A program made the position numbers and the translations under genes. Positions 16,727 to 35,483 of a stretch of DNA of 64,000 nt are shown here, piece by piece. Numbering within the stretch: position 1 is the stretch's first letter; every line of letters begins with the position of its first letter. The stretch comes from Whalleya microplaca (Eukaryota; Ascomycota; Sordariomycetes; Xylariales; Xylariaceae): contig MU385715.1 in NCBI GenBank assembly GCA_022497155.1, forward strand, positions 434,001 to 498,000, in the 5' to 3' direction. Below the pieces are notes generated by a model. The model searched no databases. It was not told the DNA's origin and saw only the letters and a program-made list of their open reading frames with translations.

Positions 16727-18102
16727 TTAAGTCTTCGCGTTCTCTTTCAGCGCATCCCTCAACATAGGCGCAATCTGCTTGCGACTGTTCTCTACTCTAT
16801 CCTGGGTCCAGCATCTCCGCCAACTCGTATCCCCCTCTTCAGCATCAAGCTTCCCATCTCCCCAAGTCCCAAGCCCCAGCTCCTCCCCATGAGACCGCAC
16901 GAACGCCTTCGCGGCCCTCACGGCCTCGGGTCCCGTCCGCGCCCACACTAGCATCTCCCTCCTGAACTTCTCATCACCTTCCTTCGACGTCGTCAGCACA
17001 GCAACCAGATCCACCTCCTTCAGCGCGCCCCATTTCTCAAGCTCCGCGACAAACGCCCCCTCGCCGCCCGCCTTATGCACCAGCGTCGCGAACGCCTGCG
17101 GGACCGACGACGTGCCCAGCTTCAACCGCGCCCCCGCCCCCGGCCCCTCGTCCCACTCCTTGTAGTCCTTGCGGAACACATCCCCGAGCGACATGCCCGT
17201 GATATCCTCCTTAAGCTTCGTCAACTGGCAGAAGAACCAGCCGCGATCGTACTCTCCATCAGACACCCGCACCCGCGCCTCCGCGATCGCCACCGCCCGT
17301 TCGTCGTGGTCCGTAGTCTTATCCCGGTTCCCGAGCGCGGACGTATCGATCAGGATGGGCGCGAGCGCCAGGCGCGCCAGCTGCGCATTGGCCTCCTTAT
17401 TCCCCTCCGTGCCATGTTCGCGCGACAGCGCCTCCCACGCCTCCCGGCAGTGCTCGAGCACCAGACTCATGCAGCTGCCGCTCTTCTCCAGCACGCGCAC
17501 GGCAGCACCCCCGCGGGCCACCACGCCCTCGTCCTCGTGGTGATCAATGCATCCGACCACCGCGGACCCGTAGACGCGCCCCAGGTCCCCCGTCATGGCG
17601 TTGTGGTCGACGAGCAGCCAGCGCGAGTCCTCGGGCCGCAAGTCGGCCGGGGACGGCAGCTCGCTGAGCGTGAGCACGTCGTCGGGCGCCAGGGAGGCGC
17701 CCGCGAGCGCGGCGGTGAATTCGGGGCGTAGGGCTAGGTCGGACCGGGGCAGGTGGCACAGCGGGATGTGCAGCGTGTGAGGGGGCGTGTGGGTGCGGAA
17801 GTAGGCGAGGATGAGCGCGGAGCAGAGGGAGTCGAGGTCTGGTGCGCGGATGGGTGTCTGGTTAGTCCGGCTGGGTCGAATCATCCGGGTAGGTAGGTTG
17901 GAGAGGGTCGAGGAGAGGGATAAGGAAGGGGGAAAAGGGAAAAGGGAAAAGGGGAAAGGGGTAAAAGGGGCAGGGACAGGAGCGTACCAGCGGATTCGTT
18001 GCCCACGACGAAGTGTAATGGTGTTGAGCGATTCGATGGCGGGGCTGTCAGCGCGGCGCGGGCGGTCGCCAGGAACGCTTTCAGTGTTTTCTGAGGCGTC
18101 AT
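16727..18102 (-). CDS. PPX1: exopolyphosphatase (DHH/DHHA2 family)
   Basis: Ppx1 removes terminal phosphates from polyphosphate in cytosol and mitochondria. Exons 18102-17988 and 17838-16727, with a 149-nt intron, give 1,227 nt, 408 aa (yeast about 397). The start is the ATG of exon 1 (MTPQKTLKAF); a longer frame that reads through the intron is not credible because the split motif VVGNESADLDSLCSA is restored only by splicing. DHH-family metal motifs in order: GNESADLDS (about 35-42), VDHNAMTG (about 117), GCIDHHEDE (about 137) and LIDTSALGNRDKTTDHD (about 220). The C-terminal DHHA2 domain follows (FVAELEKWGALKEVDLVAVL). The intron contains long G/A-rich (GGGAAAAGGG) tracts. It is convergent with the secreted nuclease; both release phosphate. 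Confidence 0.94.
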
Positions 18103-18909
18103 CTTGCAACCGACTGACTGTCGATGTTAGGTAGAGTCACCCCTGACTTTAAAAACCCAATCAACCTACTGTAGATTGCTGGTGTAGAGGTGATGCTTCC
18201 CATCGCGTACCTGCATTAACCAAGAAAGTTGGAGGGGTAGCTCAGGGAAGCTCGGGGGTAGCGCGGGGTACTAAGGCCTATACGCATATATGCATGAACC
18301 GAGTGCCTAGGTTCAACTCGGGGTTGTACATAAGAGTTCATGTTACTTTCTCTGTCACTTACCTAGGTATGTTGGTTAAAACGCTGGTAACTTCTCTTTG
18401 TTCGCCTTCAAGCATCTTCCTCCCAACAAACAGTATCATGTCATATGAGCCTTCTGCTGTTATTTCGAACCAACTTGAGTCCTTGACCGACTCGAGTCAT
18501 CTCCGGTGGAACATGTAGTTGTTAGGTATACCAAGGACCGTGGCTTTGTTTTCACAAATACCTATCTCTGTCATCAGATGAACAAGCTTTGTTTATTGAC
18601 CACTTGATGACTTGATGCTTATCTAGTCAACCCACTATTTACAGGTCATGTAATAGGGGCTTAGTCGCCAACAGTTGGAAAAAAAGATCAAGTCTATATA
18701 ACATCTGAAAGTGGTCCACATCGAACGGGTTGGTTACAGATCAACCACAACCAGCTATGGCTATATATAGGTAGGCAATAGGCTGTGTCTAGAGGAAACT
18801 ATGCACATCGACACTCGACCTGGATTTTTCTCATTATATATCTACGAAGATATTTCATCTCTAGATCTCCCTTTGATATAAAGTCGTCGGCTGACCACTA
18901 ACTGAGAAG
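18103..18909. other. upstream region of PPX1 and the HET gene
   Basis: This divergent spacer has no supported frame. On the right, TATATATAG at 18772-18780 and TGATATAAAG near 18874 are possible core elements for the HET gene. Confidence 0.4.
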
Positions 18910-20184
18910 ATGAGACTCGTCAATGCCCACACTTTAGATCTCGAGGACTTCCCTGATGACGGGAAACCTGTCTTCAATGACGAGAATACTCCCCCTTTTC
19001 ACAGGGAGCTTCCTCCTTATGCCATTCTATCACACACTTGGGGAGATGATGAGATGTCATATCGTGATGGGCCAGTTCATAAAAACCTGCCGCCAGGTTC
19101 CAGCCTGAAAGCGGGAAGTAAATTCGGTTACCTCAAGATCGGAAATACTTGTTATGAAGCCCAAAATAGAAACCTTGATTATATTTGGGTCGATACAATT
19201 TGTATCGATAAGGATAACCCGGAGGATACAGATAAATCCATCAATTCTATGTTTCATTGGTACGCTCGAGCAGAAGTTTGTTTAGTATACCTCTCCGATG
19301 TAAGCGAACCAAGGCTAGGAGACGACATACCTCTGTTCTCACGTTGGTTTACTCGGGGATGGACACTCCCGGAGTTAGTCGCGCCTCGGAAGTTGGTCTT
19401 TTTCTCAGGAGGCTGGACACTAACGGGGGACATTAATAGAGAACAAAATGGCTGGAAGAACGACAGCGAAAGCCAGAGGCTCATACATACGATTTCCTTA
19501 ACCACCGGTATAGACAGAAAATACCTAGATGGGACAGCTTCTCTACATAGCGCGAGTGTTGCTCAGCGCATGTCGTGGGCTGCGAAGAGGGAAACTCGGG
19601 AGAAGGAAGATATCGCATATTGTTTACTAGGCCTGTTCGGCGTCAAAATGCCTTTGAAATATGGAGAAGGTGATATCAACGCTTTTCGACGTCTTCAAGA
19701 GGAGATCTTAAAAACTTCCTCCGATCAGACTATCTTCGCCTGGGAAGTCAGGGAAAATACCTTCAATTGTGGAGAAGGCGTCCGCATGCTCGCTCCGTCG
19801 CCAATTTGTTTTGCAGCATCAGGAGATTTCGTTAGGGCCGAGACGTGTCAAGACACGACGCCTATTGCTGTCACGGATGAGGGAGTCACTTTGAACGCCC
19901 CAGTTCTCGACCTCGGCTGCCATACATTCCTTGTACTTGACTGCGTAAATAGGCAAGGGTCCCGCAAGGATGATCGTATCTGCGTGCCGCTGTTATCTGA
20001 GATTGATCACTATATTCGGAGTTCATGGCCGCCCACTCCACTGCCTTTTCCCACATTGTCACAGGTAGTTCGAGAGCTAAAATTCAGGCGGCTAGAGTCT
20101 CCCTCACTTACAGCTTGTACGATTCTTCTCACCTTCGACCCTTCAGAGCATCTGACACGCTGCAGCAGCGGGGTTACCTGGTAA
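18910..20184 (+). pseudogene. HET-domain (heterokaryon incompatibility) gene, 5' fragment
   Basis: HET-domain proteins act in vegetative incompatibility, where recognition of a non-self partner triggers death of fused cells. The fragment starts MRLVNAHTLDLEDF and carries the HET domain at about residues 38-185: PPYAILSHTWGDDEMSYRD, the core DYIWVDTICIDKDNPEDTDK, then RSINSMFHWYARAEVCLVYL-like sequence, and FTRGWTLPELVAPRKLVFFS. The block ETREKEDIAYCLLGLFGVKM with YGEGDINAFRRLQEEILK after it is also typical. Real HET sequence ends at 20152, at a 5-bp duplicated site; the last 10 codons up to the TAG at 20182 belong to a transposon LTR. The remainder of the gene continues at 22767 in the frame expected if the insertion is removed with one copy of the duplication. 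The domain itself shows no nonsense change, so the break looks recent or a truncated product may persist. Confidence 0.9.
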
Positions 20185-20334
20185 CCCCACTTATAGATAA
20201 GATAGATAGATTAGATAAGGCACGTACCTATATTAGAAGCTGCAGCTTTCGGCTATAGCTGGAAAGGTCCCTCCTTCCATTATTATTTTTTAGTTATTTA
20301 CATTATTTTTATATACTCTTGATCTTTTGTATTA
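20153..20334 (+). repeat. 5' LTR (182 bp)
   Basis: It starts TGACACGCTG and ends TTTTGTATTA. It aligns end to end without gaps to 22580-22761, with about 20 differences, all but one transitions. The expected terminal CA has become TA, consistent with RIP. Confidence 0.9.
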
Positions 20335-20335
20335 A

Positions 20336-20348
20336 TGGTAGTATTTGC
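20336..20348 (+). other. possible RIP-altered primer-binding site
   Basis: One base after the 5' LTR the sequence is TGGTAGTATTTGC. It becomes the initiator-tRNA-Met type site TGGTAGCGCC if three T are read as former C and one A as former G, exactly the RIP direction. The fit is suggestive, not proven. Confidence 0.35.
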
Positions 20349-21118
20349 TTTGCTTTTTTTATTATAAACATTAAATTAAATTAAAAACTAATTATTATTT
20401 ACGGAGTTATTTACTTGATTTTTATAAGAAAATTTTTCGTTATTAAATTTAAGTAAATAATAATAAAGCGCGTATAAGCTTTTAAGCAAGTTTAATCCCT
20501 TTATTTATAACGTTAAATAATAAGTCCGAATTTAAATAAAGCTAAAACTTAAGTTATATTTATATCCCCGGATTTTAATATAAATAGCTATAAAATTTAA
20601 ATATATAATTTATTATATATAAACGTTAAAAAAGCTTAAATTATACCGAATTTAAATATATATAATAACTTTATTATTTAAAAAAACCTGCTAAATTTAA
20701 ATATATAAAAACTTTTATATAACTTTTACTATTAATTTATTTACGCCTTTTTTATTTCGTTTTTTTATTTATATTTAATTATATAAAGTATATTATTTTT
20801 AGTATAAATTTATAATAATGTAGTTACGTAATTATTATATTAACGTTAATATGTCGATATTAAAGTAGCCGTAAAAAGTGCTCGACTTTAATAATAAAGG
20901 AAAAAATCCGCCCAATTAATATAAAGATTTACATATTTTTAATGCATTTTTTTAGCTAATATAACCGAAGAAATTCGGTAATAATGCCGAAATAATTAAG
21001 TTTTTAAATATAAAACTTACTAATAACGACTAACGATTTATAAAAATTAATAAATATTTAACTAGTATTAAAAGTAGCGTCGGTAAAATTATTTCGACAA
21101 TATTTAAGTTAAACGGCT

Positions 21119-21346
21119 TGTTACGGGGTATACGCCTACAAAAGACAGGGCTTCGGATCTAGCTATATTACTAGTAAAATTATCAACATGGGGAGGAAAG
21201 GAAAAAAGGAAGCAAGCCTAACAAGGCCTGCGAGAAATTACCATATACGTAAGGTGGGGTTGCTTAGTCATCCAGGTGATTGCAGCGTCCTTTTGCCCCA
21301 CCTGATCTTGATCCCAGTCTTAACTAGTCCCGATTCGGCCGCAACA
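21119..21346. mobile_element. solo LTR of a second retrotransposon, nested in the first
   Basis: A 228-bp block of normal GC content sits inside the AT-rich element. It begins TGTTACGGGG and ends CCGCAACA, giving TGTT...AACA ends, and it is flanked on both sides by the identical 5-bp CGGCT (21114-21118 and 21347-21351). This is the classic outline of a solo LTR left by LTR-LTR recombination. Because it lacks RIP changes while its surroundings are saturated, it arrived after the RIP episode or escaped by being short. Its orientation cannot be fixed. Confidence 0.85.
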
Positions 21347-22303
21347 CGGCTTTATTAACTTTTAATGTATATAAAAGGGAATTTTATCGGAAATGTTATT
21401 AAATATAGCTTTAAATTAGCGGGCGTATATATTATCCGGTTTTTTAAGTTTAGGTGTAAGTTTAAGCTTAAGTATAAGTTTAAGTTCGAGATAACGACAG
21501 TTTAGTAGTTTTATCCCGCCTAAAGATTTAAATACATAAATGTAAAAATTTAAGCATAATTTTTTTAAATTTAAGCGAGAAAATATTAAATAATTTAACC
21601 CGTATTATAATGATTTAAATAATATCGGAGTGGTAATTAATAATTACACCTTTATATTTATTAACGTTTTTAATTTTTAAAAACGAATTAATATATTTTT
21701 AAAAAACGATAATATAAAGTAAAATAATGAGAAATAAATACGGTTTTTATAGTAAATATTACTAAATAAAGTAGTAATTTTATAATGAAATAATAAATTA
21801 ATATAGTAATGACGTAAAAATTTACGCACATTAAAATTAAAAGCTATAATTAAAGTTTTAACGGAGAGATTTATATTAAAACCCGTAATTATTACGGAAC
21901 GTTTTATAAACTTTAGTTTAATTTTTAAAAATATTACACGAGATAAATTTATGTTAATGTAATATATTTAAAAAAAGTTACGGTATATATAAATTATAAG
22001 TATATTAGCTAAAAATAATCGTAATTAATATAAAGTAATGGTGTAAATATAGTTATAAATGTCTTTCGATATTAAAGAGTTTCTTTATACACTATAAAAA
22101 AATGAAACATTTATAGCATATATTTAATTGTTTCGGTTATATATTTTAAGGATTAATAAAGATTAAACTTATTTAAAAAATAAGGACTATTGCTAAGATT
22201 ACTTAAAGCCGATTAAGATATAAATGGTAACGGTGATTATAAGATATATAAAACCGAGGTGATTAAGTAATACCGTTTTAATAAAAAGAAGGATGCCTTT
22301 TAA

Positions 22304-22408
22304 TATTTTATTAAGTGGAAAGGCTGGGGCAATAAGTGGAATAAATGAAGGAATGAGAGTGAATTGTAAGGATTATTAGAATTAATTAAGGAATATTGGG
22401 AACGCTAG
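22304..22408 (+). pseudogene. chromodomain remnant at the 3' end of a decayed pol/integrase
   Basis: One frame reads YFIKWKGWGNKWNK, then after a stop RNESEL, and later LLELIKEYWER. This follows the chromodomain pattern (aromatic-x-I/V-K-W-K-G-W/Y, a Trp, then a C-terminal helix with L-I-x-E-Y) found at the C terminus of chromovirus integrases. TGA and TAA codons inside are explained by C-to-T or G-to-A changes. It is non-functional. Confidence 0.5.
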
Positions 22409-22579
22409 GGAGGGCGACTAAGAACAATTAGCCATATTTTAACTGATGACGATGGCGGCATTCCATAGCTACCATAGCTACAGCCTTCTCAGCTATTTAA
22501 GAGGAAACGAGGACGGCTTTGGAAAACGCCTGTATAAGTACTGCTGAGGGCAGCAGCTATTTTTTCGTGGCCGGCATTT

Positions 22580-22761
22580 TGATACGCTGTAGTAGCGGGG
22601 TTACCTGGTGACCCCATTTGTAGATAAGATAGATAGATTAGATAAGGCACGCACTTATATTAGAAGCTGCAGCCTTCGGCTGTAGCTGGAAGGGTCTCTC
22701 CTTCTATCATTATCTTTTATCTATTTACATTATTCTTATATACCCTTGATCTTTTGTATCA
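22580..22761 (+). repeat. 3' LTR (182 bp)
   Basis: It starts TGATACGCTG and ends TTTTGTATCA, keeping the terminal TG...CA. Same length as the 5' LTR; its C-to-T and G-to-A changes fall at different sites, so both LTRs were mutated independently. Confidence 0.9.
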
Positions 22762-22766
22762 GTATC

Positions 22767-23128
22767 CCTACCTGGTCGAAGTAAAGAAGCCGCCAGAGTC
22801 ACGGTCAAATGCTACGCCGGCAGAAAACAATTTTCACTGTATTCTTATAGAGAGATGGAAGAAAAAACCACTTCAGTATGTTATGGCAGAGCTGATAATT
22901 GAACACCGCGGTCGTAAGGCGCTTTTGGATCTTGTGGTCCATCAATCACCCACGCACATATCCGCAAGATGCCTATTGTCTAGGACTGATAATCCAATCT
23001 TCAAGCGTGGTACAACTGTTGAGAATGGGGAGTGGGCCGTGGATGTAGGAGCCGAAACCATCGCCAACAATGGCGACCTATATGTACCAGTCCATATTCG
23101 ATGCAATTCCGAGAGGGGGAATTCGTAG
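22767..23128 (+). pseudogene. HET-domain gene, 3' fragment
   Basis: After the right target-site copy the sequence continues as an open frame of about 120 codons to a TAG at 23126, beginning with PYLVEVKK in the frame that follows the 5' fragment. It contains FHCILIERWKKKPLQYVMAE and LYVPVHIRCN. This part is poorly conserved among HET proteins, so assignment rests on continuity across the insertion and not on a domain. The few codons before it that extend the open frame (from about 22754) come from the 3' LTR. No promoter is expected here. Confidence 0.78.
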
Positions 23129-24651: not shown

Positions 24652-27600
24652 ATGCGGCATATGGTAATCATTTTATGCCTATTATGCCGCTGTATTGGGA
24701 TGCCCTGGGAACGACGTGAAACTGAACCTCGCCGTTTCTACGGCCAGCACAAAGTCAATCAAGGAGCGCAATCAATATGTTACACATATACGAAAACTGT
24801 TTTGGTCACAATGCCATTAAGCTCAGACTCAATAAGCCAGGTTGGGCCATCTATAGTCGATCCTAACGGTAAAAATGGTTGGAAGCTGAGATGAACGTGA
24901 GATATATTCAGATTAACTAACGTCCTCGTAGGCTCCAACACTCACAAAACGCCCCAAGCGGCTACTATAGGGAGAGACACTATCACACCATATACAAGTT
25001 CCGCATCATTTGGGGACCCAGTGACTACTCTCTCCTCCCTACTTAGCAGCAATACTCAGATACAAAGTACACAGGACACTTACCAAGGTGCGTCGTCAGA
25101 AAGTATAGTCACAGAAAATCATATATCCGAGCGTGTTAGCTCAAGCTCTTCCGCAGCTCAGCGGACCAGCAGTGGGGGCCTAGGTGTTCCCATCGATACT
25201 ACATCAAGTGAGAATGGTTTATTATCATCGAAGCTGGTTTCCAGTACAACTGAGTATTCAAAGGGAGGCGTTGGTACTGAAGCGAGTCCTCAACTCTCCG
25301 GCACCGGCTCATCGGCTAAAACACCGGTCACCGCTGCTGTTGACAAGTCCAGCTCCGGGACAGATGCTTATGGGTTAGGGGGCAATGGTACTCCGGCCAC
25401 TTCTGGCTCGAGTCTCTCGGCCTCAGAAACTGCAATTCCGGTCTCAAGCAGCAATTCTCCTAGTCACAGACCTGACACATCCCCTATTGTGTCTACTAGC
25501 ATGCTCTCTACAACAACCATGAGCTGGAACCCTCATTGGTCGTTGTCTTCCATCTCGATAGCATCATCTAGGAGCTCCACCAAGTCAGCTATCTCAACGA
25601 TGGAATCAACTACATCCAGTAGTGCAAGTACGGCAAGATTTTCAACGACTATATCAGTTATCCTGAGTAGCGAAGTCGAATCAAACTCTCGCTCTGCCAT
25701 CACGTCAAACATGGGACAACCGAATGGCAGTGGCGGCCGCACCCAACTGTCGTTCTCGTCGTCGCTTGTGCCAACTGAAAGTAACACAGAAACTTTGGCC
25801 ACTACACCAGCGCCCATTAGTAGCGGTGGGAACTTGTCACTATTGTCGTCCGCATCGACAGAATCAAGTCGGGGGGCTATTTCAATATCTACCATCAGTG
25901 GCAGCCACTTAAGCGTATCCTCTACCACGCCATTTCATGTATTATCATACACGAGAAACTCACAGGACAATACTGTGTCATCTCGTACCTGGACAAAGTT
26001 ATCAGGTAACTCTGGACTCGGGAATGGCATTACGGGCAGCACCTCCGCGTTGTCATCACCGCCCAATCCAGGTACATCGTCCACTCACGATAATGTTACA
26101 TCAGTTACGACAAATGAATCAAGTTTCTCAACCGAAACCAGTGCCCCAATCTCCAGGTCCACCATCTCCGATAGTCCAAAAACGACCACAGATAGCTCAT
26201 CTTCCACTGCCTCAAATTCTGCTAGCTACTCCACAGATACGAGTTCGCTCACATCGCCAGGAGAGACTAGTAGCTCAACTTCTGTTCCTGAAGACACACA
26301 TATAAGCTCTTCTATATATATATCAGTTAGCTCACAGACCAATACAATTTCTACCATGGCGTCAGTTACTACGAGTTGGGCTACCCCGGTTCAGGGATCG
26401 AGCAGATTTGACACAACGGGGATATCTTCGGATTTAAGTCAAAAATCAAGGAGCTTAAACACAGGTTCGAGCCCATCGACATTGGCACAGATTTCTAGCA
26501 GCTTCACGACGGCAACTTCCTTTTCAAGCTTGACGGCGGAGAGCGCAACCAGCTCCTCAACCACGGCTCAAGACTCAAGTATTTCGATTACACCGAGCAA
26601 CGCTGCCAGCAGCCTCTCTGCAACGAATGAACCCAGCAACTTGAACACTTCCGATGGTGATAATAGCACTAGTCAACTAACAACGATACAAGCACTTGGA
26701 AATCTAAACGTCACAAGCAGTGATTCAAGCTCCAGTTCGTTCAGCTCTAGCTTAAGTAACTCATACGACTCTACAAGGCCCCTATTCGACCCAACTATCA
26801 CCCCGAGTACATCAGATGGAAAAAGCCTAACCTTAAGTTTTACATATACCTCAAGTAGCAGCTCTAGCCAGGAGGTAGGAAGCAGTAGCGCTGGATCAAC
26901 CACAGCGCCCTCGATATTATCAAACAGCTTCGATACAAGTGGCTCGCAAATACCTAGTAGCAGTCCTCTGAGTTCCATATCAACGCCCGCTACTGAGTCT
27001 AGTTCAGTAGAAAACTCAAGTCTTTCGGGTTATGGAGATACAAGCTCTAGTGCTTTCACGTCTGGAACAACATCTTCATATGCTCAAGCTTCTAGTAGCA
27101 CCCGAGAGACCAGTAACGCAGAATCTCAAATTACTTCCATCGATGGAGGGACATCATTCACCTCCTCGTCTAACACTGACCAAGAATCTACGGATTATGC
27201 TTCATCGGTTACCCAAACCACCAACAGCGCAGGAGACTCGACAACACCGCCATATTTGACTGAAAATACAAGTAGTACTCCTCGTGGCACCACAGGGCCA
27301 CTGCAATCGACAGGCCCTACAATGAGTAGTAGCAGTGTGCAGCAAAACACAAGCACATTGGGATCAGAAAGTGCTTCCACAAGCAGCAACAGCATTCAGG
27401 AGACCACACGTACTTCGGAAGCGGTAGCCGTTACTACTAGCAAGAGTAGTGTACGAGAGTATACCAGCTCATCGTCATCTTTGATTGATGTTTCGGCCAG
27501 CAGCAGCAGCAGCAGTATTTCTGAGGGGCCCAGTTCCCAATCATCGCTCAATGAGTCTTCCAACACCAGCACTGGACAGGAGAGCCCAGGTCCGCCGTCG

Positions 27601-30600
27601 ACTTTATCTTCAAGCAAGGTATCTAGCACTAGCAGTTCCGAAGTAGTCATCAGTTCGGTTTCACCTAGCCTGTCCTCGAGCAGCAGCACTTTAGAGTCGT
27701 CATCTATCGGGTCTTCCACGAGCAGTAGTACCAGTGACGAATATACATCTTCGGTGGCATCGCTTACGCAGGACTCCAGTAGCGAAAGTTCACATGACAA
27801 TACAAGCGCTACGTCGACTTCTACCGATACATCTACGTCCTCACTAGAGAGCTCATCTTTATCTAGTGTTAACCAGACCCCTTCAGACACAAGTTCTTCA
27901 TCTACTGTAACTTCTGCAGCCTTATCTACTGAGTTCAGTATGCCTGCAAGCGAAGTATCATCTACAGACATCGTGGACTCTAGATCGTCGACTATGACAT
28001 CGGTAGTCACAAGTAGACAGTCCTCAAGCACGACAAATCTCAGTTCCACCCTAGAATCCTCGTTGATCTCAAGCGAAAGTGCCACAACTTTAGGGCCATC
28101 GTCGTCGGTGAATAGTTTGACATCCTCAAGCTCAGAAGCATCCTCAACGCCTAGTTTGGAGACAAGCGGGCCTACAAGCACTTCAATTTCTAGCAGCGAC
28201 GGCGCGGATTCTTCAACAAATACGGCCTTTTCAGCAACCCAGAGTCTCTCAACCAGCGAGAATTCCCAAAGCACTCAAGTCCCGACTACCTTTAATACGC
28301 AGAGCTCCACTACGAACCAAAATTCTTTATCAGGGGTACCTTCTACTCCATCAACAACCGAAAGTATCGATAGCTCTTCTATTAATCCAAATCCTTCGAC
28401 TACTCACGATTCAAGCATTTCAGCTCCAGGGGATACCAGCTCTTCGATTACTCAGGATTCAAGTTCCTCGATTATTAAAACTCTGAGCTCGTCGGTCTCT
28501 GAGAACTCAAGTTTCCCACCTGGTCAAGGTTCGAGTCTTTCGACCACCGAGAGTCCAAGTCCATCAACTTCTGAGGGCTCAACCTCATTGGCTACTACGA
28601 GTCCAAGCCCTACGGTTACTGAGAACCCTAATCCCTCAAGCACTTCAGACTCCCCAATAGGTGGGACTACATCGAGCCCTACAGCAACTTCAAGTTCAAA
28701 CATTCCCGAGACAACATCATTGACAAGCATGTCAATTGTGTCTACCTTATCAACTCCTTCGACTGAAGCAAGCTCTATCTCCTCATCAAGCTCAGTATCA
28801 AGTTCTCTCGTCGATTTCTCAGCATTCAGCAGTGAAACAGACCTTTCCAGTTCCAGTAGCCCTATAAGCTCCACAGATGTCGCTTCAGACTCAATTTCGC
28901 TTTTGACATCCACATATTCTAGCTTTACGGGCTCGGAGTCAACAGAAACTTCCAGCTCGACTCTGGAAAGCACATCTAACCCTACCGGCCATGCTACCGC
29001 TGGTTCGTCCATCTTAGGAGATCAGACGACAACTTCCATGAGCTCTGGATCAGCATCAAGTGTATCAGACGAAAACAGTACATCTGGAGATGCATCAAAC
29101 AGTAGTTCGGCTGGCAGCTCTACTAGCTCCTCCAGCGATATGTCGCTGACAACTTCCACAAGCAACTCTGCCGACATCTCTTCCAGTTCGTCAACTGATA
29201 CCTCTACGGACCAGGCAACAGCTACGCCGACAAGTACATTGATGACTAGCATATCCACAGACACGTCTACAAGCAGCTCGGATAGTATATCGAGCTTTAT
29301 AGCATCTAATAGTACTTCTACTAGTACTGCCGATGCTTTGACAACTACATCTACAGCCACTTTCAGTAGTATTTCTAGCATGTCTACCGATTCAGCCACA
29401 AGTTCTTTTACTAGCATCACGTCTGTTGATACGCCGACTTCTGCCTCTATTAGCACTACCGTCAGAGATTCTATGATCTCTACGTCAACTATTATCATTA
29501 TCACTACAACATCAGCTAGTCTCTCTACCAGCACTAGTGATGCATCAACAAGCGATACATCAACGAGTATATCTATTAGTCCTTCTATTGATACGTCTAC
29601 TGTTACTTCCTCGAGCCTATCTTCCGACATATCTTCTACGACACCTATCAGTACTAGTGGCACCATGGCGAGTGCATCTTCTAGTCCCTCTTCCGAGACA
29701 CCTACTTTTACTCCCACAAGCGTTTCTGTCAATATATCTTCTAGCTCTTTCACTAGTACCGACGATATGTCAACAACAACGTCTATTGACACCTCTACTG
29801 ATATGTCGGCAACCATGCCTACAGACACCACGTCAATGGGGACTTCTAGTACTGATTCTACCAACACATCTACGGTTGTGCCTGTTAGTTTCACTTCGAG
29901 CAGGTCCTCATCAGGTAGTGAGTCTGTCGAATTATCAACGAGTACATCCACGACCACTTTCAACGGTGTCTCTAGCAGTTCTAGCGACGAAAATACTGGT
30001 ACTTTGACTAGAGCCTCTGTCGACACATCTATTAGCACATCTACGAGCACCTCTACGGACTCTTCTGGTAGCACATCTACAGTTATGTCTGTTAGTGATC
30101 CAACCAGTAGCTTTACTAGTTCGTCTACTAGCACGTCTACCGATATGTCTATCGACAGCCCTACAAGTAATGCTTCTAGTACGTCTGATAGTACTTCGAC
30201 TGAAATCTCGACAACTACGTCACCGAACATGTTAACAAGTGCATCAACCAATGCCCCAAATGATACAATTACCAGTTCTTCTAGCGACACAACTACCAGT
30301 GCTCTCACTAGCAGCTCCTTGGATACATCTATCGTTTCTACAACTATGTCTAGTTCTAGTTCTTCGATTGGCTCTTCTGATATATCTTTTACACTATCTA
30401 CCAGCACTGATGATACCTCAACGGATATATCCACGGCTACCTCATCTGAAAGCTCTTCAACCGAGCTACCTTCGAGCATTTCCCTAAACACATCCATTAG
30501 TTCATCCACGGATCTGTCTACACATACGTCTACTACTACTTCTGCTGTCTCTAGCAATATGATTACTAGTACTGCAACTATTGATACTGATACATCGACT

Positions 30601-33600
30601 GGAACCTTTACGGATATATCATCTAAAACTACTACTGCGCCTGAGCTTAGCACTAACAGTGATGGAGAGTTTAGTTCTACTTCACAACTCAGCGTTACTA
30701 CATCCTCCGCAGAAACAGGCTCCTCATCCGAAAGTAATACCGATATGCCGACCGTATCGACTTCTTCCGACAACACAGCTTCTCTGGCCAGTAATAATAT
30801 TGCTACCACATCTACCGGAACTATCACTCAAACTGAAACTGAGATGTCTTCAACTACCCCTGGAAACATATCTACAATTACATCAGACAGTGGCTCAATC
30901 AGTCCTTCTACAAGTGAATCTACTACTATGAGTACTGCAACAGTGACTACAATCGACGAGACCACATCGTTCGTCACCCTCATTTCCACCACCACATCTA
31001 TCACGACCTCTGAGATCTCGATCACCGATCCAGTAACCAGCACTGTTATTCTCAAAACTACATCACTCCTCACGACTACATTACCGACTACGACTACCAC
31101 CCTCAGTAGTAGCTCTGATGCGTTCACCACCACCCCTATTAGCGGCACGGAAACGCCGACGAGCACCTCTACAAGTATCTCAAGTACTACATTTAGCATC
31201 TTTAGTTCAACAATATCTGTCGCCAATACGTTTTCAAGCGCCTTTACTGATGTCTCCAATACAAGCTTGACTACTGAATCACTAACTACATCCACAGATG
31301 ATAGCACATCTCAGGATATGACTACTAATAGTTTAATTAGCAGCTCTACTAATTTGCCCAGCACTACCTCTACAGATGCGTCTACTAGTATTTCTACTAG
31401 TATTTCTACTAGTATTTCTACTAGTATTACCAATACATCAGCATTCACATCCGAGACTACCTTCAGTAGTAATTCAACCACCGCTACAGATGCAAATACG
31501 AGTACTATTAGAAGTGATTCCAGCACCCTCATATCGATTGCCACCACCGTTACCACCACCTCTACTAATATGGAAAATACTTATATTAGCCCTAACGATA
31601 CATCGACGAGCACGTCACCCAACGTTATGAGTGCGACTTCCACTGCCAGTACCTTTAGTGATACAACTCCAAGTACCTCTGAAGACACTTCGACCAATAT
31701 CTCTAGTGGTATAACTACCAGTACTCTCATTAGCAGTCCTACCGATACGACTACAACTGCTACACCCACTAGAACTTCTACCGGCACATCTCTCAGTTCT
31801 AGTGATACGTCGACGAAAGCGTCCATGAGTGTCTCAACTGATACCTCTAGTACTATGTCCATTAGTGCCTCCCTAGATGAATCTGGAACTGCATCTACTG
31901 ATACCAGTAGCAGCACCTCTAGCACTTTGACACTGACCACTACTAACTCTATGACACTAGCTAGTCCTTCCGCTAATATTTCTAGCAGTGGCTCAATTGG
32001 CACACCTACCACGAGCCCTTCGGGGCTCGAAACATCCAGCTCCACCATGAGTTCAGCAACTTTCATCAGTTCTAATACCATATCTTCCTCAAGCTCGAGC
32101 TCTGCGTCAACCACAGATAGCACATTAAATCCTAGTACAGGGCTATCGAGTACTACCATTGAAGTTTCAAGCTCACCTAGCCCTAGCGATACTACCTCGT
32201 CGCTTCTGATCTCGGGGTCCTCTACAGCGTCGACCAGTTCAGGCTCTTCGTCGACTCAAATCAGTAGCTATAGTAGCACCACAAGCGATTCAAGCACAAC
32301 TCCCACAGTTTCAAGTACATCTAGTTCAAGTCATAGTAGTTCGCCATTTTCGACCCAGCCCACTTTCACTTCGAGTAGTACTATTAGCAATACGGCTCAG
32401 TCCTCTATGTCTTCACTCTCACAGGAAACAACATCCAGTTCAGTTGAACTGTCGGGGAGTACAACGACCACATCATTGAACTCATCGACAAGTATAGCCT
32501 CAATTACCACGACACCATCTAGCTCCCCGATAGCGACGACAACGACTTCCACTGCCACGGCGGCCCCAACTTCCTCTTCGTCGTCACTATCAACTACCAA
32601 CACCCCTACAGCACTACAGACTACTGTATCTACGACAAGTAGTTCGAGTGTTGCTGTTGGAGGGTCCTCAACAAATACATCTAGCACTAATGTGTCTAGC
32701 ACCACAAGCTCATCACTTACTACGGACAGCAGTTCTACTAGCACATCTTCCAGCGCTTCCGCCGATAATTCTGTTAGCACTCTCACCAGTACATCTATTG
32801 GAGGTTCTACTAGTAGCTCTACTAGCAGCTTCACAAGCAGCTTTACAAGCAGCTCTGCCAGTGTTCCCATCAGCAGTTCAACGAGCGGCTCCATTAGCAT
32901 GTCTACTGGTATCTCTGTCGTTTCTACCAATACATCGACAATTACGTCGATAAGCACATCGGTGAGCATGTCAACAATCACGTCTACTACGTCGACGGAT
33001 GTGTCTATCAGTAGCTCGACTAAAACCTCTACGCCGACAACAATATCGACTAGTACTAGCATATCTAGTGTTGTTAGTAGTAGTACCTTCACCTCATCTG
33101 TAGCATCGTCTACGTCCTTCTCTACCACTACTGAAACCTCCTCTACGATACCAGCTACCGTCTCGTCTTTAGCTAGCTCCAGTTTCACGTCACCTGAATC
33201 GAGTACTGAATCTTCGACCACATCTAGCACGCCTGCCACCAGTAGTCTAACAAGTACTAAGTCCAGTACATCTTCGAGTACGGTTTCCAGTACCTCCACA
33301 TATATTTCTACTAGCAGCACCTCTACAAGCATCCTTAGCGGCACCTCTACCGGTGCCTCTAGTAGCCTTATCAGCAGCTCCATTGGTACATCCACGAGTA
33401 TTTCTGCAACATCAACTACGTCGATTAGCACACAGACGAGCATTCTTGTATCAACCGTGACTACAACTGCACCTACAAGCTCAGCTAGCACTATAACGAG
33501 CACCACAATTGGCACTACAACAAATACCACGCCTAGTACTACGTCTGGTACCATAACCAGCACTATATCTAGCAGTACAACCACACCAACCACAACCACT

Positions 33601-35483
33601 ACAACTACCACCATTACTATCCAAGCAACAACTACTGCAAGCACAACTAGCATAATATCACCTAGTACCATAATAACAAGCGTATCAACTACGACTACAA
33701 TAAGTACACAAACCACCTGTAGTACAACTACTACAATAACGACGTCGACTACCGGTAGTATTACTAGCACAAGTTATACTTCGAGCACCGTTTCTACCAC
33801 TACTTCTACCACTGCTGCTGCCTCTACAACTAGCACTACGGTTCTGGCAACAACTAGTAGTATAGCAACTACACCCACCACTAGCAGTACAACCACTAGC
33901 AGTACAACCACTAGCAGTACAACCACTAGCAGCACAGCAACTACTCCTACAACTACTCCTACAACTACTCCTACAACTACTCCTACAACAAGTAGCACAA
34001 TAACTAGTAGTATAACGATGAGCAGTACAATGACTACACCCACTATAACGAACACTACTACTACTACTACACCTACTACTAGCAGTACTACAACTAGCAG
34101 TACGACAACTCCACACACCACTACAAGCACGACTACTACCACCACCACTACTACACTTACTAGTACTAGTACTACTACTCCCATTACTATCACCACTACT
34201 CCAACAACTTCACCGACAACCTCATCGACAACTACACCAATTACTACTGCTAGCAGTACGACTACAACATTAATAACTATTACATCAACTATTAGTACCA
34301 CCACCACCACTACCGCTCCTACTACGCCTACAACTACTACTACGCCTACAATTACTACTACGCCTACAACTACTAAGCCTACCACCACATCTTCTACCAC
34401 CGCCACAACGACCACTAATTCAACCAGTTCAACGATAACGACTTCACTAACAACCACGTCAAGTACTACTAGCAGCACGACTGCAAGTACAAAAACTAGT
34501 ACCAGTACTACTAGTACCACTACTACACCTTCTACCATCACTACTATGACAACTACTATTGCTTCTACTACCACTACTACCACTGCTTCCAGTACTACTA
34601 GCACAAGTGTATCATGCGACCCATGTGAGTAAAGCCGAAAATCACCCGTTTCCCCCTTTCCCCTATTTGTGTACATTCGGAGTCCAGAACTTCCGAGATA
34701 GATCTCAGAACTCCCATAGACTGCCAAACTGTCTAAAAGAGGCAACACTAACTTGAGGACGCTATAGATGGTTACATGATCCAAGGCGCAACTCTCATCC
34801 GCGTCGACACGTCAACAAGCTCCGCGACCTACACAACCGTCAAAACCACCGTCGGCGACGGCAGCACCATCGACGCGCTCGGCTACAACGCCGCAGACGG
34901 CTACCTGTACGGGGCATCCGGGGCCTTCCCCTCGCGCCTCCTGCGCATCTCGCCCACGGACGGCAGCTCCACGGACCTCGGCTCGCTGAACCTGACCGCG
35001 GCCGTGGACACCGGCGTCGTGGACGAGAACAGCCAGTACTGGATCACGACGGGCGGGACCCGGTGGTGGCAGATCGACCTGCGGCCCGGCTCCGCGACCT
35101 TCGGCAAGACCGTCAACAGCGGCACGTCGACCGCGCCCGCGTACGCCATCCTCGACTGGGCGTGGGTGCCCGGCGGCGGCGACAACCTGTACGGCATCGG
35201 CTACGACGTGCTCGCGCTGATCACGTACACGATGCAGTGGAGCCGGACCACCAAGACGTGGACGACGCGCACGGGGTACCTGAACTTGATCCCGCTGCTG
35301 GGCGGGAACCGCGCGCGCTGGGGCGCCGTCTGGGCCTCGCAGGACGGGTACATCTACGGCTCCGAGAACGCCAGTGGGCAGTTGTTCCGGTTCCCGCTGC
35401 CGCCCGGCGCGACGGCGACGATGGTGGGTACGAGTCCGGCATCGGCGAACAATGATGGTGCACGGTGTGTCAAGGCTTCCTAA
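24652..35483 (+). CDS. giant Ser/Thr-rich mucin-like cell-surface protein with C-terminal globular domain
   Basis: Model: exons 24652-24868, 24932-34624 and 34768-35483, totalling 10,626 nt, about 3,541 aa. Introns have donors GTAAAA and GTGAGT, acceptors CGTAG and TATAG, and CTAAC branch sites. The proposed start opens with a short hydrophobic segment (MVIILCLLCRCIG), a weak signal peptide, so the 5' end is tentative. Residues from about 75 to 3,300 are almost wholly Ser and Thr without a single stop: Ser-rich first, then increasingly Thr-rich with TTTTPTT-type runs. This predicts dense O-mannosylation and an extended wall-spanning stalk. The last exon encodes about 240 aa of ordinary composition: CDPYGYMIQGATLIRVD across the splice, then GDGSTIDALGYNAADGYLYG and NLYGIGYDVLALITYTMQW. 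It resembles the domain found after Ser/Thr stalks in other fungal secreted proteins (I believe DUF6923, unverified). No GPI signal is seen. A role in adhesion or wall structure is inferred. Confidence 0.75.
31381..31428 (+). repeat. 4 x 12-bp in-frame tandem repeat in the mucin
   Basis: Four exact copies of TCTACTAGTATT, each encoding Ser-Thr-Ser-Ile. The unit is a multiple of three, so copy changes preserve the frame. Confidence 0.92.
33877..33936 (+). repeat. 4 x 15-bp in-frame tandem repeat in the mucin
   Basis: Four copies of ACCACTAGCAGTACA (the last with one T-to-C change) encode Thr-Thr-Ser-Ser-Thr. Confidence 0.92.
33940..33987 (+). repeat. 4 x 12-bp in-frame tandem repeat in the mucin
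   Basis: Four copies of ACTACTCCTACA encode Thr-Thr-Pro-Thr, directly after the 15-bp array. Confidence 0.92.

Follow-up and report, generated by a model that had tools for sequence, protein, structure and literature searches.

An LTR retrotransposon with insert-confined RIP inside a HET-domain gene of Whalleya microplaca

In Podospora anserina, het-s isolates carry an nwd2 gene put out of action by the REPA transposon, according to the partial text of PMC3321046. The same species carries NWD pseudogenes inactivated by repeat-induced point mutation (RIP, a fungal hypermutation of repeats), NWDp1 and NWDp2, and a split HNWD remnant beside a transposon relic, as described in an extract of PMC1805685. 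In Neurospora, HET genes show presence-absence variation, with 74 HET-domain genes across 76 strains (PMC13412767, in part). We analysed a window of 64,000 nucleotides of Whalleya microplaca (contig MU385715.1, positions 434,001 to 498,000 of assembly GCA_022497155.1), in which a HET-domain gene is interrupted by an element with long terminal repeats (LTRs), hereafter the outer element. The locus resembles nwd2/REPA in that natural strains have a transposon inserted in a gene that belongs, putatively in Whalleya, to the network by which fungi recognise self and non-self. It differs in that the P. anserina insertion is present in all het-s isolates analysed and its partner gene is known (PMC3321046, same partial text), whereas on the Whalleya side there is one genome, a putative recognition gene with a HET domain, and an insert decayed by RIP, deletion and nesting. 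Like NWDp1, NWDp2 and the HNWD remnant, it shows a HET/NWD-type gene lost close to transposon remains in a fungus where RIP is active; in P. anserina, however, RIP hit the gene itself and at least 750 bp around the NWD pseudogenes (PMC1805685, same extract), whereas in Whalleya it is confined to the insert. The locus is a well-preserved specimen of an ordinary, known kind of gene loss, otherwise expected in a genome with 136 PF06985 matches (counted exon by exon), and a readable record of it: insertion, insert-confined RIP, nested insertion and deletion, with the cell-death domain still open. To our knowledge, a part in incompatibility has been demonstrated for only a minority of HET-domain genes. 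Among the open-licence papers found on HET domains together with transposon insertion, retrotransposons and RIP, truncation and null alleles, pseudogenes or solo LTRs, none describes this locus by title or abstract, and among those found on W. microplaca none is a HET study by title. Stop codons lie in 10 of the 136 matches, and other HET genes of this genome are probably broken too.

Structure of the interrupted gene and of the insert

The open frame upstream of the insert matches PF06985 in a profile search (E 1.2e-13, 52.1 bits against a curated cut-off of 22.5), the best stretch covering profile positions 1-90 of 146. The protein-collection entry for this frame lists PF06985 and PF26640, the latter being absent from the profile search result. 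The insert begins and ends with two direct LTRs, identical at 162 of 182 bases, and 19 of the 20 differences are transitions (C/T or G/A either way), the remaining one being a transversion. A single C/T difference separates the TA end of the 5′ LTR from the CA end of the 3′ LTR. The pentamers flanking the insert, GCATC and GTATC, match at four of five bases (P ~0.016 for two unrelated 5-mers), and their mismatch is CpA to TpA. The insert therefore shows the direct LTRs, TG..CA ends and target-site duplication of an LTR retrotransposon, with the 5′ LTR ending in TA and the duplication matching at 4/5. We searched the genome of one strain (48.1 Mb, 114 contigs) and found matches to the outer LTR in at least 41 places, the window's two included. 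Four full-length copies, chosen by match spacing, so that others may exist, measure 7651-7688 bp and are colinear with the window copy except for two differences; where the edges are expected, two of them show a perfect 5-bp duplication and the other two no clear one. The HET profile match, the LTR pair, the flanking duplication and the kept phase thus bear out the initial annotation, which had described a HET gene split by an LTR retrotransposon with GCATC/GTATC as target duplication. It had also ended the HET sequence at 20152; this is correct for the insertion point, while the open frame itself runs 10 LTR codons further (Table 1).

We consider it probable, with good confidence, that a Ty3/gypsy-like LTR element inserted into the HET gene and that RIP, nesting and deletion followed, leaving the gene truncated. 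An LTR retrotransposon, probably Ty3/gypsy and in sense orientation, would have inserted after codon 414, duplicating 5 bp; RIP would then have mutated the inserted copy in place without touching the exon pieces on either side; the outer element would itself have been entered by a second LTR element, of which a solo LTR stayed behind; and ~5.1-5.2 kb would have been lost from its middle. The gene can now specify at most 424 aa, namely the HET domain, the beginning of a C-terminal region predicted to be beta-rich and 10 LTR residues, with the last ~120 residues gone. The sequence directly shows how the insert is built, its RIP signature, the nested solo LTR, a deletion that no other match shares and the shortened frame; that the downstream frame is the end of the HET gene, that RIP followed the insertion, which class and orientation the element has, and that function was lost or altered are inferred from it.

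Table 1. Positions of the features of the interrupted HET-domain locus in the window
Feature	Position	Strand	Remark
HET-domain gene 5′ piece, 414 codons, ATG 18910	18910..20151	+	PF06985 match; protein-collection entry 424 aa
Left target-site duplication GCATC	20148..20152	.	
Open-frame read-through into 5′ LTR, 10 codons then stop (20182-20184)	20152..20184	+	
Outer-element 5′ LTR, 182 bp, TG..TA	20153..20334	+	strand suggested by weak domain traces
Outer-element left interior, RIP-mutated, GC 0.178	20335..21113	+	
Left duplication CGGCT of nested element	21114..21118	.	
Nested solo LTR, 228 bp, TGTTACGG..CCGCAACA, TG..CA ends, second LTR family	21119..21346	-	strand from reverse transcriptase strand in paired relatives
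Right duplication CGGCT of nested element	21347..21351	.	
Outer-element right interior, RIP-mutated, GC 0.249 (measured on 21348-22579)	21352..22579	+	
Apparently private internal deletion junction, ~17 bp overlap between sides	22111..22127	.	comparison with full-length copies
Weak chromodomain trace, end of former integrase region	22271..22405	+	PF00385 E 0.033 (under the cut-off; stops translated as X)
Outer-element 3′ LTR, 182 bp, TG..CA	22580..22761	+	
Right target-site duplication GTATC	22762..22766	.	
HET-domain gene 3′ piece (very probable), ~120 codons in phase, stop 23126-23128	22767..23128	+	

The truncated product and the downstream frame

The open frame now consists of the 414 codons up to the insertion point and the 10 LTR codons, so that the truncated product keeps the HET domain and has lost ~120 C-terminal residues. 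Most likely, judging from the sequence, the protein would be abolished or altered through the loss of its C-terminal end. Of the 'null or truncated allele' proposed initially we retain the truncated allele, since the frame is still open over 424 aa and includes the HET domain; we do not adopt a null. Paoletti and Clave reportedly found in 2007 that expressing a HET domain by itself can set off cell death. The truncated gene could accordingly be alive, transcription ending in the LTR and yielding a stable 424-aa HET protein with a changed C-terminus that acts as a new or constitutively primed allele. The frame is open, RIP has not spread into the exon, the LTR could supply a poly(A) signal if the element is in sense orientation, and of 95 nearly invariant positions (at least 90% alike across 52 homologues) the protein retains 87. 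However, we judge such a live allele unlikely. Firstly, the protein departs at the other eight of these positions, more than in 50 of the 52 homologues (median 3; 2/52 reach 8). Secondly, the cut would fall inside a predicted beta-rich region and should cause misfolding. In the model of a homologue, P0109 (mean predicted local distance difference test score (pLDDT) 79, predicted template modelling score 0.82; block pLDDT 62-79 over 381-460, lower beyond), residue 414 aligns near residue 408, after a predicted strand at 403-406 and with five predicted strands following; a structure search of the PDB with a homologue model returned nothing at E<=0.001. Thirdly, chance alone would leave the frame open if, on the neutral scale, the insertion is young: under neutrality, 414 codons remain stop-free with a probability of ~0.4-0.8 at 0.005-0.02 substitutions per site and of 0.15-0.20 at 0.04, and the clean HET frame therefore shows neither youth nor constraint. 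The locus also bears on the persistence of HET proteins cut short at the C-terminus.

Six of the eight departures cluster in HET residues 103-110 (window 19216-19239), where at least 90% of homologues have the motif SSxELxEA; NP is also found in this stretch of the Kalmusia protein P0002. The 43 fully invariant columns of another alignment were defined with the HET protein itself included and are no test of conservation. P0002 and P0003 (Cadophora), among the best-scoring homologues, have an apparent tandem pair of HET domains, P0002 matching twice (4-252, 293-522) and P0003 being judged by eye from its sequence. A sequence search of the PDB found no match at E<=1.

Downstream of the insert, the frame of the table's last row is very probably the HET gene's own end. 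Base 20152 and base 22766 each fall on codon position 1, so that phase is kept across the insert, and none of the 119 codons of the 3′ frame is a stop (P 1.4e-3 from base composition); elsewhere in the window, 19 of 3089 unmasked frames with a guanine plus cytosine content (GC) of 0.44-0.52 are open. The piece is single copy in the genome. Against a profile of 82 homologue tails, chosen by length (480-660 aa), it scores 1.6 bits, a value reached by 30/1000 shuffles and 19/972 decoy frames. In a jackknife of tail profiles at the 5% level, 23/58 genuine tails pass once relatives of at least 55% identity are taken out, and 3/20 when the limit is 50%; given this low pass rate, the profile test is weak in either direction. 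No close orthologue was found: the 119 matches listed besides the HET protein itself are 36-47% identical (7996/8000 scored candidates pass E 0.001). The putative join between the two pieces is therefore based on their phase, the open frame and this weak profile similarity. The initial annotation had the frame resuming correctly after the insert and had proposed an alignment to orthologues to see the gene uninterrupted; the phase and the absence of stops agree with the former, and among the matches listed we found these homologues and no close orthologue joining both pieces.

Alternatively, the HET gene ended near 20152 or elsewhere, and the downstream frame is a chance or unrelated one. Several results weigh on this side. 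No homologue of the 3′ piece was found in a search that took only proteins of 0.55-1.75 times its length, which excludes full-length relatives. Compared with the 119 homologues and six frames of its own genome, two of which (L004, L007) are short wrong-strand frames and carry no weight, it gave no significant match (best E 4.4 with BLASTP, 3.2 with phmmer). In a global tail alignment it reached a z of 1.74, a score equalled by 13/300 shuffles, and 21 of 37 rotations score as well, so that the position of the 3′ piece within the tail is not supported. Codon usage failed to single out the true frame even of the 5′ piece and is therefore uninformative on the 3′ piece. As a power control, we counted tail matches between homologues: only 19 of 2758 ordered pairs, 38-46% identical in their HET part, share one at E<0.1, and a missing match of the 3′ piece therefore means little. 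A foreign frame is improbable in view of the matching phase and the absence of stops, of a profile score in the top 2-3% of controls and of the homologues themselves, 58/60 of which (of the 82 chosen by length) extend at least 34 residues past the point aligned with codon 414. A match of the 3′ fragment to an unrelated gene, which the initial annotation had held would refute its reading, was not found in the length-limited search described above.

RIP, its boundary and the age of the insertion

We compared base composition and two RIP indices between the outer-element interior and the two HET pieces. TA/AT is 1.27 and 1.22 in the left and right interior and 0.75 (5′) and 0.67 (3′) in the HET pieces; (CA+TG)/(AC+GT) is 0.29 and 0.59 in the interior and 1.12 (5′) and 1.28 (3′) in the HET pieces. 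The GC is 0.479 and 0.476 in the HET pieces, against the depleted interior values given in Table 1. Within the 200 bases beside each insert border, TA/AT (0.69 and 0.79) and (CA+TG)/(AC+GT) (1.30 and 1.22) are like those of the HET pieces. The outer-element interior is thus RIP-mutated, neither HET piece is, and RIP ends at the insert. In the LTR pairs of the four full-length relatives, 87 transitions and no transversion were counted (L068, with 25 transitions and 4 transversions, was left out as it is probably no true LTR pair), and 141 of 145 reverse-transcriptase matches in the genome contain stops (150/176 candidates scored). The LTRs of one element are identical at insertion; their RIP-type differences here therefore suggest that RIP acted after insertion.

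Because the marks of RIP lie in the insert and the exon pieces are free of them, the locus is a compact natural test of RIP sharpness at a repeat boundary. In Neurospora, RIP leaks at least 930 bp into single-copy flanks, as cited in the partial text of PMC2973834. Selection or a physical barrier could keep RIP out of the HET exon, the truncated gene working as a death-domain allele with its C-terminal regulatory end removed and the LTR stop after 10 codons; we hold this to be quite doubtful. The window LTRs have a GC (0.368, 0.390) above that of most of 28 other LTR copies (0.21-0.42); 27 of these 28 are flanked on either side by 600 bp with a GC below 0.34, whereas the window copy sits in a normal-GC stretch.

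The initial suggestion that the loss may be recent, drawn from the lack of nonsense decay, is not supported: given the transition bias of the window LTRs and of their relatives, RIP rather than time sets the divergence, and the absence of stops has little power. Dating by LTR divergence was rejected, since nearly all differences are RIP-type transitions. The single transversion in 182 LTR sites suggests a non-RIP divergence of ~0.0055-0.0083 substitutions per site per lineage, with a wide interval of ~0.0001-0.046. RIP, nesting and perhaps the deletion came after the insertion, and the first two speak against a very recent event.

Interior of the outer element, nested LTR and neighbouring frames

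The window copy is without ~5.1-5.2 kb of the middle present in the full-length copies. None of 21 other matches to the 200 bases surrounding the junction crosses it, 13 ending on the left side and 8 on the right, and the deletion looks private to the window copy from this comparison. The outer element is probably of Ty3/gypsy type, in the same orientation as the HET gene. Chromodomain Ty3/gypsy LTR retrotransposons occur in filamentous ascomycetes, and the outer element is like them in its TG..CA LTRs, its 5-bp duplications and weak traces of chromodomain, Tf2-1-like SH3 and RNase H in one orientation, the last two also below cut-off (SH3_Tf2-1 E 3.1e-4, RT_RNaseH E 0.019). Two observations count against this assignment: the traces are accompanied by chance-level matches of similar strength, and none of the genome's RVT_1 matches (same 150 scored candidates) falls in the four full-length copies. 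Class and orientation therefore rest on weak traces. The outer element differs from the chromodomain elements in this lack of a recognisable reverse transcriptase, presumably through RIP, and in the internal deletion of the window copy.

The nested element is bounded on both sides by a perfect CGGCT duplication, and the site is empty in all four full-length outer copies. Its family has 40 scored genome matches, the window copy included; these include five pairs with a spacing of 6.83-6.88 kb and a sixth with one of 7.3 kb, and every pair encloses an RVT_1 match on the opposite strand, which identifies the window copy as a solo LTR in reverse orientation. Its GC is 0.465, not depleted. The nested insertion is likely to be later than the RIP of the outer element; its place in the order is unproven because short solo LTRs may fall below the RIP length limit, which is 400 bp for linked and 1 kb for unlinked repeats in the extract of PMC1805685. 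Assemblies break at LTR elements, but an artefact in which repeats were collapsed or misjoined inside the HET gene is very improbable here, as the near-matching flank duplications stand in phase, a separate perfect duplication flanks the nested solo LTR, and the genome holds no near-identical second copy of either HET piece (the 5′ piece has a best other match of 53%, the 3′ piece has no other match).

Upstream, the HET gene is neighboured by a DHH phosphoesterase gene (16727-18136, minus strand), whose product shares 91% identity, across 88% of the query, with a protein on record for W. microplaca. Starting 1.8 kb downstream of the broken gene, a single open frame of 3,243 codons (24901-34632, plus strand) encodes almost only Ser and Thr, has no Pfam match and may be a mucin-like wall or adhesin type protein; it accompanies a GC skew of -0.13 to -0.43 across 26-35 kb.

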